Position numbers and translations under genes: made by a program. The notes below the pieces were generated by a model, which had not been told where the DNA came from, did no database searches, and was given only the letters and a program-made list of their open reading frames with translations. This document shows, one piece after another, positions 6,163 through 63,179 of a DNA stretch of 64,000 nt (position 1 is its first letter; each line of letters begins with the position of its first letter). Where the stretch lies: contig MGPB01000033.1 of NCBI GenBank assembly GCA_001795455.1, positions 124,001 to 188,000 of the forward strand, read 5' to 3'. This stretch comes from Curvibacter sp. GWA2_63_95 (GTDB lineage: Bacteria; Pseudomonadota; Gammaproteobacteria; Burkholderiales; Burkholderiaceae_C).

Positions 6163-6181
6163 GTGCAGATGCCGCAGCCGT

Positions 6182-6241
6182 AATTGCTACGTTTTTCATA
6201 GCTGCTTGCGCATATTCCATGGGCGCCAGCAGCCAGTTTTG
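6182..6241 (+). repeat. 60-bp dispersed repeat, copy A (intergenic, upstream of gabD)
   Basis: AATTGCTACGTTTTTCATAGCTGCTTGCGCATATTCCATGGGCGCCAGCAGCCAGTTTTG. Confidence 0.85.
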
Positions 6242-6262
6242 TTTAAATATCGAGGAGACACC

Positions 6263-7862: not shown

Positions 7863-8387
7863 ATGTCCAAACCAACGACTCCGTTTTACAGCCCCGACAA
7901 CTACCAGCCGGAGGCCAGCGTGGGGTACTTGATGCGCAGCATCCTCAATCACGTGGCCCAGGCCGTTGACCGGGAACTCGCCCACACCGAGCTCACCAAT
8001 GCGCAGTGGATTCCGCTCTTCAAGCTCTACACCAAGAAGGCCTCTACAGTGGCCGAACTCGCCCGCGCCTGCGAGATCGACAACGGCGCGACCACCCGCC
8101 TGCTCGACCGCATGGAGGCCAAAGGCCTGTGCCAACGGGTGCGCTCCGAACAAGACCGCCGCGTCGTCAACCTCGAACTCACCGCGGCTGGCAAGACCGC
8201 TGCAGGCGATATCCCGCGCATCTTGAGCGACGTACAAAACGCCCATCTTGAGGGCTTTAGTCGCGCAGAGTTTGAAGCACTCCAAGGCTTTCTGAGCCGC
8301 ATTCTTGACAACGCCCAACGCATCAAGGCTGCCAGCCAGGCCGCCCCCGCGATCCCCGACACAGAAACCGAAACGCCCCATGTTTAA
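7863..8387 (+). CDS. MarR-family transcriptional regulator (EmrR-like)
   Basis: Winged-helix sequence VAELARACEIDNGATTRLLDRMEAKGLCQRVRSEQDRRVVNLELTAAG; heads an efflux operon. Confidence 0.88.
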   Translation: MSKPTTPFYSPDNYQPEASVGYLMRSILNHVAQAVDRELAHTELTNAQWIPLFKLYTKKASTVAELARACEIDNGATTRLLDRMEAKGLCQRVRSEQDRRVVNLELTAAGKTAAGDIPRILSDVQNAHLEGFSRAEFEALQGFLSRILDNAQRIKAASQAAPAIPDTETETPHV

Positions 8388-9873
8388 TTCCACCACCGCC
8401 TCATCCCGGGCACTGCGCTGGAGCCGCTTTGCCCTGAGTGCGGCTGCACTCGCCTCACTGAGCGCCTGCGCCAATTTTTCCGGCATCTTTTCCCAGGCCA
8501 AGCCCGTTGCAGCCCAGCAAGCCGGCCTGTCCACCCAAGCCATTCCGGCCGACAGCGTCGCCCTGAACAGCCAATGGTGGAAAGTCTACGGCGATGAACA
8601 ACTGAACCAACTGGTGGACAAGGCCTTGGCCAACAACCCCAGCCTGCGCGTGGCCCAGGCCCGCGTGCAGCGCGTGATGGCGTCCATCGACAACGCGGAC
8701 GCTGCAGGCGCCCCCCAACTGAATGCCAGCCTGGATGCCACCCGCCAGCTCTACACCCGCAACGGCCTGGTGCCCGCCCCGATTGCAGGCAGCGAGCGCG
8801 ACATTGCCACCCTGCAAGCCTCCGGCAATTGGGAACTGGACCTGTTCGGCAAGAACCGTGCAGCGCTCGATGCGGCCATCGGCCAAAGCCGTGCCGCCCA
8901 GGCCGATGCCCAGGCTGCCCGCATGCTGCTGGCCAGCAATGTGGCGCGCAGCTACTTTCAATGGATGCGGGTACAAGCCCAACTTGAAGTCGCACAGCGC
9001 ACCCTGACCCAACGCGAACAAACCAAGCAGTTGGTACAGGACCGCCTGCAAGCCGGCCTTGATACCCAGCTTGAACTCCAGCAAAGCGAGAGTGGTTTGC
9101 CGGATGCCCGCTTCCAGATCGAGGTCCTCAGAGAGCAGGAAGCCTTGTTGCTCAACACGCTCAGCGCCTTGACTTCACAACAAAACAGCCCGCTAGCGCT
9201 TTTAAAACCTGCGCAAGCAGCTATCAATTCCATAGCAAATGCGCAGACCAAAGTGCAAACCGTGCCGCTGGACCTGCTGGGCCGCCGCGCCGATGTGGTG
9301 GCTGCCCGTTGGCGTGTGGAAGCGGCCACCCGCGACGTGGACAACGCCAAGACCCTGTTCTACCCCAACATCAACCTGACCGCCTTCGCCGGGTTTTCGA
9401 GCATCGGTTTTGACAAGCTGGTGCAAAGCAGCAGCGCGCAATGGGGCGTGGGCCCGGCCATTCGCCTGCCCCTGTTTGAAGGTGGCCGCTTGCGCGCCAA
9501 CCTCAAGGGCAAGACCGCCGACCTGGACGCCGCTATCGAGACCTACAACGCCGCCGTCGTCGACGCGGTGCGGGACGTGGCCGACCAGCTCGCCTCCACC
9601 CAAGCCATCTCCCGCCAGCAGCGGGAGCAGAAAGCGGCGCAACAGTCTGCCGAATCGGCCTACGCCATTGCCGTGCAACGCTTTGAGGCCGGCTTGGGCA
9701 ACTACCTCAACGTGCTCACCGCAGAAACCGCCGTCCTGACCCAGCGCAAATTGGGCGTGGACCTGGCGGCCCGCAGTGTGGACACGCAAATCCAACTCAT
9801 CCGCGCGCTGGGTGGTGGCTTCAACGAGACAGACATCAGCACCGCGCAGGCCGGCAACACCGCCGCCCACTAA
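8380..9873 (+). CDS. Efflux outer membrane lipoprotein, NodT/OprM family
   Basis: Lipobox LSAC; NSQWWKVYGDEQLNQLVDKALANNPSLRVAQARV; LLGRRADVVAARWRVEAATRDVDNAKTLFYPNINL. Confidence 0.9.
   Translation: MFNSTTASSRALRWSRFALSAAALASLSACANFSGIFSQAKPVAAQQAGLSTQAIPADSVALNSQWWKVYGDEQLNQLVDKALANNPSLRVAQARVQRVMASIDNADAAGAPQLNASLDATRQLYTRNGLVPAPIAGSERDIATLQASGNWELDLFGKNRAALDAAIGQSRAAQADAQAARMLLASNVARSYFQWMRVQAQLEVAQRTLTQREQTKQLVQDRLQAGLDTQLELQQSESGLPDARFQIEVLREQEALLLNTLSALTSQQNSPLALLKPAQAAINSIANAQTKVQTVPLDLLGRRADVVAARWRVEAATRDVDNAKTLFYPNINLTAFAGFSSIGFDKLVQSSSAQWGVGPAIRLPLFEGGRLRANLKGKTADLDAAIETYNAAVVDAVRDVADQLASTQAISRQQREQKAAQQSAESAYAIAVQRFEAGLGNYLNVLTAETAVLTQRKLGVDLAARSVDTQIQLIRALGGGFNETDISTAQAGNTAAH
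9181..9240 (-). repeat. 60-bp dispersed repeat, copy B (inside NodT lipoprotein CDS)
   Basis: Minus strand ATTTGCTATGGAATTGATAGCTGCTTGCGCAGGTTTTAAAAGCGCTAGCGGGCTGTTTTG. Confidence 0.88.
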
Positions 9874-19341: not shown

Positions 19342-20547
19342 ATGCAAAAACGAAACACTCTCAAATTGATAGCTGCTTGCGCAGCATTGGTGTGCTCTAC
19401 AGCCACTTTTGCCCAAGAAACCATCAAGATCGCCAACATTGTGGAGCTCTCCGGTGGTGGCGCCACCGCCGGCACCAACTTCAAGAACGGCGTGGAACTG
19501 GCCGTGAAGGAAATCAACGCCGCAGGCGGCATCTTGGGCAAGAAGATCCAGACCATCACCTCCGACACCCAGTCCAACCCTGGCGTGGCCAAGGGCCTGA
19601 CCCAGAAGGCCGTGGACGACGAGGTGTTTGCCATCTTCGGCCCCGTGTTCTCGGGCTCCATCATGGTGTCCATGGCGGAAAGCCGCAAAGCCGAAATCCC
19701 CAACTTCACGGGCGGTGAGGCGGCCAGCATCACCCTGCAGGGCAACCCCTACATCTTCCGCACCAGCTTCACCCAGGCCACTGCCATGCCCAAGGTGGGC
19801 CGCTACATCAGCGACACCGCCAAGCTCAAGACCTTGGCCGTGGTCTACGTGAACAACGACTTCGGCAAGGGCGGCCTGGACATGATCAAGAAGGCGCTGG
19901 ACAAGTCGTCCACCAAGGTGGTGGCCGAGATCTCCACCGACTCGGGCCAGGTGGACTTTTCTGCCGCCGTGCTCAAGGCCAAGCAAAGCGGCGCCGACGG
20001 CGTGTTCGTCTACTCCAACGAAGAAGAGTCTGCCCGCATGCTGCGCGAGCTGCGCAAGCAGGGCTGGAACAAACCCGTCATTGGAGAAACGACCCTCACC
20101 GGCCAAAAGGTGATTGAGCTGGCCGGCGAAGCCGCCAACGGCGCCGTGGCCCACGTGGGCCTGACGGTAGACGCCCCCCTACCCGCGATCCGCGCCTTCC
20201 GCGCCAAGTTCGAGCGTGACTACAAATACGTGTCCGACCACAACGGCATGAAGGGTTACTCCGGCGTCTACGTGCTCAAGGCCGCCATCGAAAAGGTGGG
20301 CAAGCTGGACCGCAAGGCCGTGGCCAACGCGCTGCACAGCCTGGTGGTGACCACCGACAAGGAGCCCGGCATCCTGATGAACGTGGCCTTTGACCAAAAC
20401 GGTGACCTGGACCGCGAGAGCTTTCTGGTGGAGGTGAAGAACGGCCAGCAAGTGGTGGTGGCCACCCTACCCCCGCTCAACCCGATTGCGGTGAACAAGC
20501 CCGCTGCAGCCCCTGCGGCCAAGCCAGCGGCGCCTGCCAAGAAGTAA
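19342..20547 (+). CDS. ABC transporter substrate-binding protein (Leu/Ile/Val-type, Peripla_BP_6)
   Basis: Signal peptide; IKIANIVELSGGGATAGTNFKNGVELAVKEINAAGGILGKKIQ; upstream of livHMGF-like genes. Confidence 0.9.
   Translation: MQKRNTLKLIAACAALVCSTATFAQETIKIANIVELSGGGATAGTNFKNGVELAVKEINAAGGILGKKIQTITSDTQSNPGVAKGLTQKAVDDEVFAIFGPVFSGSIMVSMAESRKAEIPNFTGGEAASITLQGNPYIFRTSFTQATAMPKVGRYISDTAKLKTLAVVYVNNDFGKGGLDMIKKALDKSSTKVVAEISTDSGQVDFSAAVLKAKQSGADGVFVYSNEEESARMLRELRKQGWNKPVIGETTLTGQKVIELAGEAANGAVAHVGLTVDAPLPAIRAFRAKFERDYKYVSDHNGMKGYSGVYVLKAAIEKVGKLDRKAVANALHSLVVTTDKEPGILMNVAFDQNGDLDRESFLVEVKNGQQVVVATLPPLNPIAVNKPAAAPAAKPAAPAKK
19357..19411 (+). repeat. Dispersed repeat, copy C (encodes signal peptide of the Liv-type binding protein)
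   Basis: CTCTCAAATTGATAGCTGCTTGCGCAGCATTGGTGTGCTCTACAGCCACTTTTG. Confidence 0.78.
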
Positions 20548-21511: not shown

Positions 21512-22495
21512 ATGAAAAAAATCACTCTCATTTTGATAGCTGCTTGCGCAGTACTGCTGCTGTCTGCACCGCCTTTTCTCAAGAATTACGGCATCTACCT
21601 GCTGTCCTACTGGCTGGTGTTTGTCATCGCCACCATGGGCCTGAACCTCACCGTGGGTTACGCCGGGCAAAAGTCCCTGGGCCATGCGGCCTTCTTCGGT
21701 ATCGGGGCCTACACCGTGGCCATCCTGATGAAAGCCGGCATCAGCTTCTGGCTGGGCCTGCCAGCCGCCGCATTCATCTGCTTTTTTGTCGGCATTGCGC
21801 TGGGATTTCCGGCGCTGCGGGTGCAGACCATTTACCTGGCCTTTGCCACCCTGGGCTTCAACACCGCGGTGTGGCTGGTCATGCGCAATGAAGAGTGGCT
21901 GACCGGGGGCACCTTCGGCATCAACAACATTGCCCGCCCCAGCCTGTTGGGCTTCTCGCTCGAAGGCAACCTCGCCTACTACTACTTTGTGCTGGCCACG
22001 GCGCTGCTGCTGGGCGCGCTGCAGTGGGGCCTGCTGCGCAGCCCCTGGGGCAAGGCGTTTACCGCGCTGCGCGACAACCCGATCCGTGCCGAGAGCCTGG
22101 GCATCAACACCCGCAGCTACACCTTGCTGAGCTTTGCGATTGGTGCGGTGTATGCGGGCATTGCCGGTGCGCTGTTTGCCTCGCTGGTGCAGTTCATCGA
22201 GCCCGCACCCTTCACCGTGGGTGCGTCCATCATGATGTACCTGATGGTCGTCGTCGGTGGCCCGGGTTACTTTTTGGGTCCGCTGCTGGGCTCCGCGGTG
22301 GGCGTGATCCTGCCGGAGTGGTTGCGCTTTGCGCAGGCCTGGTACCTGTTTGTCTTTGGCGCTGCCGTGGTGCTGTTGATGATCTGGCTGCCCGATGGAC
22401 TGCTGAGCATTCCCGACCGCATCAAGGCCAAGCGCCAGGCGCGCGAAGCCAGCGCCGCACGCGCGGCCGCCGCCCAACAACAGGGAGCCAAGTGA
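21512..22495 (+). CDS. Branched-chain-type ABC transporter permease LivM
   Basis: MGLNLTVGYAGQKSLGHAAFFGIGAYTVAIL; RDNPIRAESLGINTRSYTLLSFAIGAVYAGIAGAL. Confidence 0.92.
   Translation: MKKITLILIAACAVLLLSAPPFLKNYGIYLLSYWLVFVIATMGLNLTVGYAGQKSLGHAAFFGIGAYTVAILMKAGISFWLGLPAAAFICFFVGIALGFPALRVQTIYLAFATLGFNTAVWLVMRNEEWLTGGTFGINNIARPSLLGFSLEGNLAYYYFVLATALLLGALQWGLLRSPWGKAFTALRDNPIRAESLGINTRSYTLLSFAIGAVYAGIAGALFASLVQFIEPAPFTVGASIMMYLMVVVGGPGYFLGPLLGSAVGVILPEWLRFAQAWYLFVFGAAVVLLMIWLPDGLLSIPDRIKAKRQAREASAARAAAAQQQGAK
21521..21580 (+). repeat. Dispersed repeat, copy D (encodes N-terminus of LivM)
   Basis: ATCACTCTCATTTTGATAGCTGCTTGCGCAGTACTGCTGCTGTCTGCACCGCCTTTTCTC. Confidence 0.78.
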
Positions 22496-33332: not shown

Positions 33333-33342
33333 TTTTTACAAG

Positions 33343-33402
33343 CCAAATTGGCACCTAGCCCCCACAGATATTGCGCAAGCAGCTATATAAACCATAGCAA
33401 AT
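33343..33402 (-). repeat. 60-bp dispersed repeat, copy E (intergenic ggt-dnaG)
   Basis: Minus strand ATTTGCTATGGTTTATATAGCTGCTTGCGCAATATCTGTGGGGGCTAGGTGCCAATTTGG. Confidence 0.88.
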
Positions 33403-33549
33403 TCAGAACCGAGCCTGCGATTCCGCGCCGGGCCGCCCCCAGCGGTTCTGGACCGCTTGGCGGCCAGCGCCGCTAGGCAATTAGCCTCTTTAGGGGGCAA
33501 CGACCCGCGTAGCGGCGGAACGTGGGGGCCACGTTCCTACAATCACCCC

Positions 33550-38921: not shown

Positions 38922-38947
38922 AGCCATCCGGCTTTTGCAAGCCATTT

Positions 38948-38991
38948 AGCGCCCCAGCCCACATGGAATGTGCGCGGGGCGCTATTTTTTT
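38948..38991 (+). terminator. Rho-independent terminator after rpoD, formed by a diverged copy of the dispersed repeat
   Basis: AGCGCCCC...GGGGCGCT with inner CACAT-GGA-ATGTG, followed by ATTTTTTTT. Confidence 0.82.
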
Positions 38992-39018
38992 GATAGTAGA
39001 TAAATCTGTATTGCTCCC

Positions 39019-40777: not shown

Positions 40778-40795
40778 TCTGCGGCATAATTTAGG

Positions 40796-40856
40796 GCTTT
40801 TCTGCCCTCCAGCGCACGTCCCATGTGCGCCAGCAGCTACTCTTTTTATAGCAAAC
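40796..40856 (-). repeat. Dispersed repeat, diverged copy H (intergenic, upstream of FKBP gene)
   Basis: Minus strand TTTGCTATAAAAAGAGTAGCTGCTGGCGCACATGGGACGTGCGCTGGAGGGCAGA. Confidence 0.65.
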
Positions 40857-40868
40857 AAGGAACTCCCC

Positions 40869-50827: not shown

Positions 50828-50840
50828 GGCGCAACAGGCG

Positions 50841-50876
50841 CTCTCAAAAAAATAGCGCCTCGCGCAGATGGCGCGG
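50841..50876 (-). terminator. Rho-independent terminator for the minus-strand nitronate monooxygenase gene, formed by a diverged repeat copy
   Basis: Minus strand: TAGCGCC-CGCGC-CATCT-GCGCG-A-GGCGCTA followed by TTTTTTT. Confidence 0.75.
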
Positions 50877-50903
50877 GCGCTACAGGCTTAAACCCCTTGC
50901 AAT

Positions 50904-51869
50904 TTACGCGTAGTTGCGGGCCAGCAGTTCGGCCTTGGCAGCGGCGTACTCCCGTTTGAGTTGGGCCACATACTCGCCCGCCGGCTGCACTTTGGTCACG
51001 GCGCCAATGCCCTGGCCGCAGCCCCAGATGTCCTTCCAGGCCTTGGCCGATGCACCGCCAAAGTTCATCTTGCTGGGGTCGCTCTCGGGCAGGTTGGCCG
51101 GATCCAGGCCCGCAGCTCGGATGCTGGGTGCCAGGTAGTTGCCGTGCACGCCGGTGAACAGGTTGCTGTAGACGATCTCATCGGAGTCATTCGCCACGAT
51201 GGCGTCCTTGTACTCCTGGGCAGCGCGTGCCTCTTCGGTGGCGATGAAGGCCGAGCCGATGTAGGCAAAGTCCGCCCCCATGGCCTGGGCCGACAGCACA
51301 GCGGCGCCAGTGGAAATGGAGCCGCTGAGTGCGACCGGACCGTCAAACCACTGGCGGATTTCCTGGATCAGTGCGAACGGGCTCTTCACGCCCGCATGGC
51401 CACCAGCCCCTGCAGCCACGGCGATCAGACCGTCCGCGCCCTTCTCGATCGCCTTGTGTGCATGCTTGTTGTTGATGATGTCGTGCAGCACCACGCCACC
51501 GTAGCTGTGGGCCGCGGCGTTGATCTCTTCGCGCGCGCCCAAGGACGTGATGATGATGGGCACCTTGTACTTCACGCACAGCGCCATGTCGTGCTCCAGC
51601 CGGTCGTTGCTCTTGTGCACGATCTGGTTGATGGCAAAGGGCGCAGCAGGCTTGTCGGGGTGGGCGGCGTTATACGCAGCCAGCGTTTCGGTAATTTCCT
51701 TGAGCCAGTCTTCCAGCAGCTCGGCCGGGCGGGCGTTCAGCGCAGGCATGGAACCCACCACACCGGCAATGCACTGGGCGATCACCAGCTTGGGGTTGCT
51801 GATGATGAACAGCGGCGAGCCGATCACGGGGAAAGGCAAGCGGTCTAGCGGTGCAGGCAGTCTGGACAT
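50904..51869 (-). CDS. Nitronate monooxygenase / 2-nitropropane dioxygenase family
   Basis: LPFPVIGSPLFIISNPKLVIAQCIAGVVGSMPALNAR; GADGLIAVAAGAGGHAG; ALSGSISTGAAVLSAQAMGADFAYIGSAFIAT. Confidence 0.92.
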   Translation of the reverse strand: MSRLPAPLDRLPFPVIGSPLFIISNPKLVIAQCIAGVVGSMPALNARPAELLEDWLKEITETLAAYNAAHPDKPAAPFAINQIVHKSNDRLEHDMALCVKYKVPIIITSLGAREEINAAAHSYGGVVLHDIINNKHAHKAIEKGADGLIAVAAGAGGHAGVKSPFALIQEIRQWFDGPVALSGSISTGAAVLSAQAMGADFAYIGSAFIATEEARAAQEYKDAIVANDSDEIVYSNLFTGVHGNYLAPSIRAAGLDPANLPESDPSKMNFGGASAKAWKDIWGCGQGIGAVTKVQPAGEYVAQLKREYAAAKAELLARNYA

Positions 51870-51895
51870 GGAGTCTCCTCGGGTCAATTTTTATA

Positions 51896-51955
51896 TGAAA
51901 TCAGGCGCTAGCCCCCGTGGATACTGCGCGAGCAGCTAGCAATTCAGTAGCAAAT
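51896..51955 (-). repeat. 60-bp dispersed repeat, copy F (intergenic between nitronate monooxygenase and acyl-CoA dehydrogenase)
   Basis: Minus strand ATTTGCTACTGAATTGCTAGCTGCTCGCGCAGTATCCACGGGGGCTAGCGCCTGATTTCA. Confidence 0.87.
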
Positions 51956-51971
51956 AAAGCGCGAACTCCGC

Positions 51972-58040: not shown

Positions 58041-58961
58041 ATGGACGCACAACACAAGCTTAAATCATTGCTGGCCCAGCTTAACATGGTGATTGTGGGA
58101 AAACCCGCGCAAATCCAGGACTGCGTCGCCTGCCTTCTGGCCGGTGGCCACCTGTTGATTGACGATGTCCCGGGCGTGGGCAAAACCACGCTGGCGCACG
58201 CGCTGGCACGCAGTTTTGGCCTGCAGTTTTCGCGCGTGCAGTTCACCTCGGACCTGATGCCCAGCGACCTGTCAGGCGTGTCAATTTACGAGCGCGCCAA
58301 AGAGGCCTTTGTGTTCCACCCCGGCCCCATCTTTGCGCAGGTACTGTTGGCCGACGAGATCAACCGCGCCAGCCCCAAGACGCAAAGTGCGCTGCTGGAA
58401 GCCATGGAGGAAAAGCAGGTCACCGTGGAAGGCGAAACCCGCCCCCTGCCCCAGCCCTTCTTTGTGATTGCCACCCAAAACCCGCTGGACCAGTTAGGCA
58501 CCTACGCGCTGCCCGAATCACAACTGGACCGCTTTTTGATGCGCATCTCGCTGGGCTACCCCGATCGGGCTTCCGAGCGCGCGCTGCTGGCCGGTGCCGA
58601 CCGGCGCGCCATGGTCGACGAGTTGCCCAGCCTGCTGGCCGACGGCGAGCTGGCCCAATTGCAAGCCACTGTGCTGGCCGTGCATGCCGCAGGCCCTTTG
58701 CTGGACTATGTGCAGGACCTGATTGCCGCCACCCGCTCGGGCCAGTGGTTTTTGCAGGGCCTGTCGCCACGCGCCGGCATTGCCGTAGTGCGCGCCGCCA
58801 AAGCCCAGGCCCTGCTCAGCGGACGCGACTATGTAGCGCCCGACGATGTGCAGGCGGTGCTGCCACAGACCATTGCCCACCGCCTGATTCCCGTGGGAGA
58901 TTCGGGCCGTGGCGCGGTGGAGCAAGTGCAAGCCATGCTGCAAGCCGTTCCTCTCCCCTGA
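58041..58961 (+). CDS. MoxR-family AAA+ ATPase
   Basis: LIDDVPGVGKTTLAHALARSFGLQFSRVQFTSDLMPSDLSGVSIY; LLADEINRASPKTQSALLEAMEEKQVTVEG. Confidence 0.95.
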   Translation: MDAQHKLKSLLAQLNMVIVGKPAQIQDCVACLLAGGHLLIDDVPGVGKTTLAHALARSFGLQFSRVQFTSDLMPSDLSGVSIYERAKEAFVFHPGPIFAQVLLADEINRASPKTQSALLEAMEEKQVTVEGETRPLPQPFFVIATQNPLDQLGTYALPESQLDRFLMRISLGYPDRASERALLAGADRRAMVDELPSLLADGELAQLQATVLAVHAAGPLLDYVQDLIAATRSGQWFLQGLSPRAGIAVVRAAKAQALLSGRDYVAPDDVQAVLPQTIAHRLIPVGDSGRGAVEQVQAMLQAVPLP

Positions 58962-59050
58962 TGACGCCCCCCCGAAGCGCCTCCGGCGCCTCCCCCCCAG
59001 GGGGGCGCACCCTGTGGCCCGGCACAGCCGGCTCCACGGGTGCCCTGGTG
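58962..59050 (+). repeat. GC-rich palindromic intergenic element between moxR and DUF58 gene
   Basis: GACGCCCCCCCGAAGCGCCTCCGGCGCCTCCCCCCCAGGGGGGCG then CACCCTGTGGCCCGGCACAGCCGGCTCCACGGGTG (nested inverted repeats). Confidence 0.6.
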
Positions 59051-59065
59051 TGGAACCCCCTCACC

Positions 59066-60013
59066 ATGTTGCGCCGCAGGTTCCGCGCCTGGTTCGAGTC
59101 GCGCCTGCCGCTCAAGGACAGCACCACGCTGACGCAGCGCAACGTCTACATCCTGCCCACACGCCCCGGCCTCATGCTGGGCCTCACGCTCTTGGTGCTG
59201 CTGGTGGCCAGCATCAACTACCAGCTCAACCTGGGCTATGTGCTGACCTTTTTGCTGACCGGCAGCGCCGTCATTGGCATGCATGTGTGCCATGGCACCC
59301 TGCGCGGACTCACTATGCATTTGATAGCGCCTGACGCACAGTTCATGGGGGCTAGCGTGCCAATTGGCATACAACTGCAAAGCGACAGCCGACGCGTGCG
59401 CTACGGCATTGGCCTGGCCGTGCTGGGCACCCAGCATTGGAGCTGGACCGATGTGCCGGCCCAGGGCAGTGCCAAGGTGCAGGTGGCCTTCACCCCCACC
59501 CAGCGCGGCCTGCACCGCCTGCCGGCGCTGACGGCTGAGACCCGTTTCCCGCTGGGCACCTTCCGCGTGTGGACGGTGTGGCGCCCGGCCGCGCAGGTGC
59601 TGGTCTACCCGGCCCCCGAGGCCCACCCGCCGCCCCTGCCTCCGGGCGAACCGAAGGCTGGTGGCGCGGCCAATAGCCACAAACAACACACCGGCGAATT
59701 TGACGGCGTGCGTGCCTACCGGCGTGGCGACCCGCTCAAGCTGGTGGTCTGGAAAAAAGTCGCCAAGGCCGACGAACTGGTGAGCCGCGACGCCCAGCAG
59801 TCGCAGCGCTTTGAGCTGTGGTTAGACCTGGCCCACGCCGGCCAGGGTGCGGGCGCCTCGCGCGAGCACGCCCTCTCGCGCCTGTGCGCCTGGGTGCTGC
59901 TGGCCGAGAAACAAGGCATGCGTTATGGCCTGCGCCTGGGCAGCCAGCAGATCGCACCCGACAGCGGCCCCGCCCACCAGAAGAACTGCCTGCAGGCGCT
60001 GGCCTTGGCCTGA
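59066..60013 (+). CDS. DUF58 domain-containing protein
   Basis: NVYILPTRPGLMLGLTLLVLLVASINYQLNLGYVLTFLLTG; FDGVRAYRRGDPLKLVVWKKVAKADELVSRD; ATG 59066 preferred over longer ORF. Confidence 0.88.
   Translation: MLRRRFRAWFESRLPLKDSTTLTQRNVYILPTRPGLMLGLTLLVLLVASINYQLNLGYVLTFLLTGSAVIGMHVCHGTLRGLTMHLIAPDAQFMGASVPIGIQLQSDSRRVRYGIGLAVLGTQHWSWTDVPAQGSAKVQVAFTPTQRGLHRLPALTAETRFPLGTFRVWTVWRPAAQVLVYPAPEAHPPPLPPGEPKAGGAANSHKQHTGEFDGVRAYRRGDPLKLVVWKKVAKADELVSRDAQQSQRFELWLDLAHAGQGAGASREHALSRLCAWVLLAEKQGMRYGLRLGSQQIAPDSGPAHQKNCLQALALA
59310..59370 (+). repeat. Dispersed repeat, diverged copy I (inside DUF58 CDS)
   Basis: CTCACTATGCATTTGATAGCGCCTGACGCACAGTTCATGGGGGCTAGCGTGCCAATTGG. Confidence 0.65.
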
Positions 60014-62054: not shown

Positions 62055-63179
62055 GTGACTTTTTCAATTCGCCTAATTGCTACGCTTTTGATAGCTGCTT
62101 GCGCAATATCCGCGGGAGCTAGCACCCAAAAACGCCATAAATCTGCAGGCAAACCGGCCCACCGGCCCAAAGCACCCGCCGCCGCCCAGGTGGCCACCAC
62201 CGGCCCGCTGTACGCCACCCGCCCCGAGATCATGCAAGTGGCCGACGATCTGGCCCAGCGCCGCAACCTGGACCCGGCCTGGGTGCGCCAGGCCATCGGC
62301 CAGGCCCGGCTGGTGCCGGCCATCCAGCGCGCCAGCACACCGCCCACGGTGGGAACCCCCAAGAACTGGGCCGTCTACCGCAGTCGTTTTATCGACCCCA
62401 TCCGCATCAAGGCCGGCGTGCAGTTCTGGCAGGACAACCGCGCCACCCTGGAACGTGCCGAACGCGAAACCGGCGTGCCCGCGCAAATCATCGTGGGCAT
62501 CATCGGGGTGGAAACCATCTACGGCCAGCAGACGGGCAACTACCGGGTCATCGACGCGCTCAGCACCCTGGCCTTTGACTTTCCTGCCGCCCACCCGCGT
62601 GCAGCGGATCGTGCCAAGTTTTTCCTCTCCGAGCTGGAGGCTTTTCTCAGCCTCACCGCCCGCACCAACACCGACCCGCTGGCCCTCAAGGGCAGCTACG
62701 CCGGTGCCATGGGCCTGCCACAGTTCATGCCGTCGAGCTGGGCCAAGTACGCGGTGGACTTTGATGGCGACAGCCGTGTCGACCTGTTCCACAGTGCGGC
62801 CGATGTGATTGGCTCGGTGGCCAATTACTTCGTCACCTTCAAGTGGCAGCCCGGCCAGCCCACGCACTACCCGGTGCAGTTCGACCTGGCCCGGCTGGAC
62901 CGTGCCACTCTGCTGGCGCCGGACATCCTGCCCACCTTCAGCGCACAGGCCATGCAAGACAAAGGCGTGCTGCTGGACACGGCAGCGGCCGCACACACGG
63001 GCAAGCTGGCGCTGGTGGAACTGCAAAACGGTGCCGACGCACCGCTGTACATCGCCGGCACCGACAACTTCTACGCCATCACCCGCTACAACTGGAGCAG
63101 CTACTACGCGCTGGCGGTGATCGAGCTGGGGCAAGAGGTGGCCGCCGCTTTGCCCGCCCCACCCGGCGTGCCAAAATAA
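62055..63179 (+). CDS. mltB: Lytic murein transglycosylase B family
   Basis: PAQIIVGIIGVETIYGQQTGNYRVIDALSTLAFDFP; GSYAGAMGLPQFMPSSWAKYAVDFDGDSRVDLF; GTG start at 62055 (or TTG at 62046). Confidence 0.92.
   Translation: MTFSIRLIATLLIAACAISAGASTQKRHKSAGKPAHRPKAPAAAQVATTGPLYATRPEIMQVADDLAQRRNLDPAWVRQAIGQARLVPAIQRASTPPTVGTPKNWAVYRSRFIDPIRIKAGVQFWQDNRATLERAERETGVPAQIIVGIIGVETIYGQQTGNYRVIDALSTLAFDFPAAHPRAADRAKFFLSELEAFLSLTARTNTDPLALKGSYAGAMGLPQFMPSSWAKYAVDFDGDSRVDLFHSAADVIGSVANYFVTFKWQPGQPTHYPVQFDLARLDRATLLAPDILPTFSAQAMQDKGVLLDTAAAAHTGKLALVELQNGADAPLYIAGTDNFYAITRYNWSSYYALAVIELGQEVAAALPAPPGVPK
62075..62134 (+). repeat. 60-bp dispersed repeat, copy G (encodes MltB signal peptide)
   Basis: AATTGCTACGCTTTTGATAGCTGCTTGCGCAATATCCGCGGGAGCTAGCACCCAAAAACG. 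Confidence 0.88.

Follow-up and report, generated by a model that had tools for sequence, protein, structure and literature searches.

A motif of roughly 70 bases that recurs all over the genomes of Curvibacter sp. GWA2_63_95 and relatives looks like a tag by which these bacteria recognise their own DNA in uptake. The window, the whole 64,000-nucleotide stretch that was analysed, holds the copies given here, among them one translated within the signal peptide of an MltB-like protein.

62055..63179, + strand: MltB-like lytic transglycosylase (SLT_2), GTG start conserved in orthologues
62074..62143, + strand: motif copy J, 42.6 bits, MltB-like signal peptide, in frame as IATLLIAACAISAGASTQK
19352..19421, + strand: motif copy, 32.7 bits, LivK-type binding-protein signal peptide, in frame
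21519..21588, + strand: motif copy, 22.8 bits, LivM N-terminus (first membrane segment), in frame
59307..59376, + strand: motif copy, 24.6 bits, inside a DUF58-type gene, the best case of in-place evolution
9172..9241, - strand: motif copy, 38.0 bits, inside gene 8380-9873 on the opposite strand
51887..51956, - strand: motif copy, 48.4 bits, intergenic
6181..6250, + strand: motif copy, 43.4 bits, upstream of gene 6263
33334..33403, - strand: motif copy, 40.9 bits, intergenic
40788..40857, - strand: motif copy, 31.0 bits, upstream of gene 40869
50835..50904, + strand: motif copy, 28.4 bits, intergenic
38933..39002, - strand: motif copy, 25.5 bits, intergenic

Anatomy, number and genomic distribution

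A profile seeded with the window copies was iterated over 1.664 Mb of the same genome, i.e., 80 tiles of 20 kb plus the window or 43% of 3.88 Mb, and it is from this sample that the copy statistics come. With a cut-off of ≥10 bits the profile detects 263 copies in these 1.66 Mb, vs 0 in reversed sequence; the genome-wide copy number is about 600, and a 14-mer search of the whole genome has 295 matches vs 0 in the control. The consensus, of ~70 bp and 60 bits, reads TTTGCTAT-nAWTT-nnTAGCTGCTYGCGCA-nATTCCACGGGGGCTAGAGGCC-nATTT-...-AAAA, and in intergenic copies the conserved stretch is likewise ~70 bp, profile positions -3 to 66. AT-rich tracts are found near positions 0, 10, 31, 54 and 63, with a weak period of ~11 bp (block-shuffle p 0.034).

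Where do the copies lie? Genes were called by a codon-usage gene caller and, as this tends to set starts downstream of motif copies, N-terminal candidates were checked by hand. Inside genes there are 96 of the 263, with 36 further copies in open N-terminal extensions that have an upstream start codon and 131 that are intergenic or without a possible start; the density is 0.51/kb between genes vs 0.07/kb within them. An apparent error-prone DnaE2-type gene (C8:107975-111259) has two strong in-frame copies (50 and 39 bits) and two weaker matches. Separate copies are never less than 450 bp apart, where ~17 such cases were expected (P 3e-5; the count leaves out three double hits on one palindrome). 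Spacing overall is not even, its CV being that of random placement, and what stands is short-range exclusion and a mild under-dispersion per 20 kb. A 60-kb stretch of low GC and poor codon adaptation, C21:300001-360000, which is probably a recently acquired island, has 0 copies (P 8e-5).

Could the motif be what a chromosome-organising or recombination protein binds across the genome (Chi-, KOPS- or nucleoid-protein-like), selected directly in place? The in-place evolution and stability described below, and the spacing, fit as well with such selection as with uptake, and a protein that bends DNA might be suited by a motif of this length with its AT tracts in phase. However, strand use is roughly equal (118 vs 145) and not strongly skewed, unlike that of KOPS or Chi, sixty bits is far beyond the need of such sites, and the avoidance of foreign DNA by the copies is left unexplained. 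A binding motif ranks second after uptake and is to be taken seriously, though we think it unlikely.

Substitution over existing sequence

Ten coding sites were compared with homologues (the MltB-like and DUF58-type genes, a CCA-type nucleotidyltransferase twice, PGI, GlmU, PurL, LigA, IleRS and a variable linker), with protein-guided alignment since automatic DNA alignment of copy-bearing vs copy-free loci was too noisy, and at none of the ten was there a clean insertion of the motif's 19 codons. In the DUF58-type gene (58961-60013) some 70 orthologues, drawn from the MltB neighbourhood of named Comamonadaceae, align gap-free over the copy, and over that same stretch the motif score is 36 bits in Polaromonas, 33-16 in Rhodoferax, 1-6 in intermediates and none in Acidovorax, the partial states differing by scattered substitutions. 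Across MltB orthologues the signal-peptide window goes from 46 bits down to none, with gaps of at most a single residue. Both copies in the CCA-type nucleotidyltransferase line up colinearly with Rhodoferax-group homologues that lack the motif; one of them overlaps the universal DLTINAIA motif, just after which other families are about ten residues shorter, in an ambiguous loop. The LigA, PGI and IleRS copies have no insertion with respect to solved structures, and as against the nineteen residues that come with a full motif, GlmU is longer by seven and PurL by about eight. The copies in the variable linker C21:216477 and in a disordered stretch of C21:83323 are uninformative for insertion. 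We conclude from these comparisons that the motif arises by substitution in place, being written over existing sequence and not inserted. The first-pass annotation had the MltB-like signal peptide deriving from the repeat, a description that is not supported, as the coding copies are not insertions in homologue alignments.

The copies also keep their places. Among mappable strong copies in 400 kb, 25 of 26 are at the same site in one sister genome, and for a second sister the figure is 20 of 21. Between sister genomes, intergenic copies are not clearly more conserved than the sequence that flanks them, and it is only for in-gene copies, in two of three genome pairs, that greater conservation of motif than of flank is significant.

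Hundreds of copies, in frame in genes as are Rickettsia palindromic elements (PMC3733652), a GTAG/GGAG at positions 14-17 that recalls REPs, and a single Y1_Tnp gene flanked on one side by a copy at a distance of ~340 bp would all be in keeping with in-frame insertion of a mobile palindromic element, be it REP/RAYT, MITE or Rickettsia palindromic element. Against this are not just the coding copies compared, of which none is a clean 19-codon insertion, but also the near absence of presence/absence polymorphism at mappable sites, the lack of clusters, as copies repel one another, and the lack of a conserved hairpin, RNAalifold on 97 intergenic copies giving two pairs at -0.25 kcal/mol. At the sites compared this origin is largely refuted, and we regard it as very unlikely. 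An insertion element was rejected with alignments that have no insertions and sites that are common to sister genomes. An RNA element was also considered and rejected: an Rfam search of the window matched no family, there is no consensus structure, and both strands are used in genes.

Overwriting in place and a family consensus are also what ectopic gene conversion would yield, with repeats overwriting similar sequences by homologous recombination, a molecular drive that would need no uptake specificity, and the difference between the Acidovorax and Rhodoferax dialects is compatible with it. However, the copies are nearly like independent draws: for 112 strong intergenic copies mean nearest-neighbour identity is 0.812 vs 0.806 +/- 0.003 for independent profile draws, an excess that is tiny but formally significant (p 0.02). 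The copies do not look recently duplicated from one another: the most similar copy pairs share no flanks, there are no subfamilies, only short-range column correlation, and scattered substitutions are again what distinguishes the partial states. Gene conversion seems to us improbable.

Reading frames and signal peptides

The 60-mer quoted in the first-pass annotation is 62075-62134, in frame in the SLT_2/MltB-like gene. The motif there is longer, about 62074-62143, and so overlaps the first 30 codons counted from GTG 62055, which is supported as the start because orthologues keep it at the same column. It was presented as the third protein in the window with LIAACA at the export signal, and rightly so, as the same DNA encodes LIAACA in LivK (19342) and LivM (21512). 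Given the peptide, the probability of the codon choice under genome codon usage, in which ATA has a frequency of 1.2 per 1000 codons, is 2.5e-6, and it is on account of that improbability that the match is placed at the DNA level. Read in its one open forward frame, the motif gives LIAACA, a hydrophobic core, with the small residues STGAS after it, which may be why motif and MltB signal peptide coincide.

Is LIAAC in the MltB-like protein a lipobox, i.e., an SPII site? It was considered as such and rejected, as in orthologues the Cys is replaced by S, F, Y and others. An AxA-like site (window 62100-62130) is kept despite the Cys loss, and for these two reasons cleavage by signal peptidase I is, as judged from the alignments, likelier for the protein here than a lipoprotein. 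E. coli MltB, by contrast, is a lipoprotein.

In genes, 38 copies are in the LIAACA-sense frame and 40 in one antisense frame, so that two main frames hold 78 of the 96 vs one third expected (p 6e-22). The consensus is open (stop-free) in just two of six frames, exactly the two used in genes, and the frame bias therefore needs no signal-peptide explanation. In C34:59195-59722 an apparent signal peptide is read from the antisense open motif frame (ALMEYAQAAPDLIA), and so signal peptides may draw on either open frame.

Enrichment at the 5′ ends of genes for exported proteins was anticipated and is indeed present: 15 LIAACA-frame copies (15/60) are in signal-peptide windows, 15-fold denser than in gene interiors (p 4e-11), with GspD-, LolB-, TctC-, HupE- and M16-peptidase-like genes (named on sequence resemblance only), MltB and LivK as examples. 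Did the motif then spread as a portable signal peptide by improving export, as first suggested? That density is in favour, as is the arginine (of GARG) encoded by about half of non-coding copies and absent from nearly all signal-peptide copies. However, most copies are elsewhere, including in the opposite frame and in cytosolic enzymes, some relatives without the motif still have the signal peptide, and signal peptides and interiors do not differ significantly in frame preference (p 0.15, uncurated counts). There is no mobility, with those 25 of 26 mappable copies common to a sister genome, so ‘portable’ is not supported, and gene interiors, where the opposite open frame is used as often (40 vs 38), also speak against a signal-peptide element. 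The reuse of one frame, from which the suggestion came, is real in that the same LIAACA frame recurs, but with two of six consensus frames open it was to be expected anyway. Spread through improved export is an explanation to which we give hardly any credence. Signal peptides look instead like lenient hosts for a DNA motif kept for some other reason, their use of it being a by-product.

Range and dialects among relatives

An exact core pattern matches this genome 178 times and another genus 419 times; some others reach tens to ~150 matches, and most of 121 GTDB-family genomes have few or no matches. A looser pattern matches A. temperans 370 times (control 1) and a Polaromonas 503 times; its counts are 283 for A. 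defluvii, 233 for A. facilis and 136 for A. delafieldii, and a Variovorax has a single match. Dialects differ between Acidovorax and Rhodoferax, the Acidovorax one being ...GCGCTTAT(N)5AAGCGCTAG (35 copies, many orthologous). An unsupervised survey gives the motif pairs GCTTAT(N)5AAGCG for A. ebreus, as a potential novel motif, and ATAGCT(N)22CAAAAG for P. naphthalenivorans, and has more spaced motif pairs for R. ferrireducens T118 than for any other genome (PMC5217627). The P. naphthalenivorans pair was not found in a small Polaromonas sample. In the literature searched, with subscription papers mostly outside it, no description was found of the full motif, its in-place evolution or its function.

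A candidate uptake sequence

Natural transformation with type-IV pili and sequence specificity is known in Comamonadaceae, with no motif reported for it; uptake is sequence-specific in V. eiseniae and in A. temperans, and the latter is reported to transform only with conspecific DNA (PMC4212676). Uptake sequences are scarce in newly acquired and in constrained coding DNA, and those of Pasteurellaceae favour gene ends (PMC7811141, PMC2346458). In the genome here ComEC and DprA are present, and a search with ComEA model TIGR00426 gave nothing above cut-off. As ComEC and DprA families are found in most bacteria, their presence discriminates poorly. The ComEC/Rec2 competence gene (C33:192791-193702) is about 5 kb past the window end, and the dprA gene (C34:47162-48322) itself bears a motif copy, in frame and close to the 3′ end of the gene (48104).

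The motif evolves in place, is stable and spaced, avoids foreign DNA, favours tolerant and 5′-terminal coding positions and has dialects, all of which is seen in uptake sequences under uptake-driven molecular drive (PMC7811141, PMC2346458, PMC3630211). These traits, taken with transformation in Comamonadaceae and with ComEC and DprA, are the grounds on which an uptake sequence is rated the most likely reading, and by analogy the balance tips slightly towards the motif being a DNA-uptake sequence in the manner of DUS and USS. We propose it as the motif behind the sequence-specific uptake of Comamonadaceae. Competence dependent on type-IV pili would prefer fragments bearing the motif and, as these recombine with the chromosome, the motif would build up to hundreds of copies. 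It accumulates by substitution in tolerant DNA, be it intergenic sequence, a linker or a signal peptide, and also within enzymes that can accept the peptide it encodes.

To our knowledge the established uptake sequences come from just two bacterial families. A wider proposal, which we entertain without quite leaning to it, is that Comamonadaceae, namely Rhodoferax, Acidovorax, Polaromonas and relatives, independently evolved an uptake-sequence system of their own, the third, with dialects specific to each genus and a motif longer than any other known for uptake, and that its spread rewrote proteins including many signal peptides. If true, a third uptake-sequence family, in freshwater and soil bacteria, would be an independent case for the evolution of uptake specificity, would account for sequence specificity in the transformation of V. 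eiseniae and A. temperans, and would offer a tag for the design of transforming DNA in these two laboratory species. A DNA motif kept for other reasons can reshape proteins, above all signal peptides, and even with a different function, an in-place motif of this kind is a sizeable unannotated feature of these genomes.

Comparison with known systems

The betaproteobacterial repeat element, BRE, is also a short repeat from Comamonadaceae with some copies in genes, but its copies, at most 29 per genome, are arranged in variable tandem clusters, a description that sets the motif here apart (PMC3110155). Rickettsia palindromic elements and coding REPs are, similarly, short repeats translated in frame in many genes; those, however, are insertions and palindromes (PMC3733652), whereas the motif here has neither clean insertion nor conserved hairpin and almost no polymorphism. 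The Acidovorax pair of the unsupervised survey is present in the Acidovorax form of the motif, though what the survey gives is potential motifs and counts, and not extent, coding behaviour, in-place evolution or function (PMC5217627).

From the DUS of Neisseriaceae and the USS of Pasteurellaceae the motif differs in sequence, in the host family, Comamonadaceae, in being known from sequence alone, and in size, as it has ~70 bp and 60 bits and they have a core of 9-12 bp, ~31 bp when extended. It is also some six times sparser, at ~one per 6 kb vs ~one per kb for USS in H. influenzae. Yet there is much in common with DUS and USS (PMC3630211, PMC7811141, PMC2346458): hundreds of dispersed copies on both strands, in-place evolution in coding DNA with frame bias, scarcity in constrained coding sequence and in a foreign-looking island, enrichment towards the 5′ ends of genes, a GC core set among AT tracts, and different dialects in related genera.
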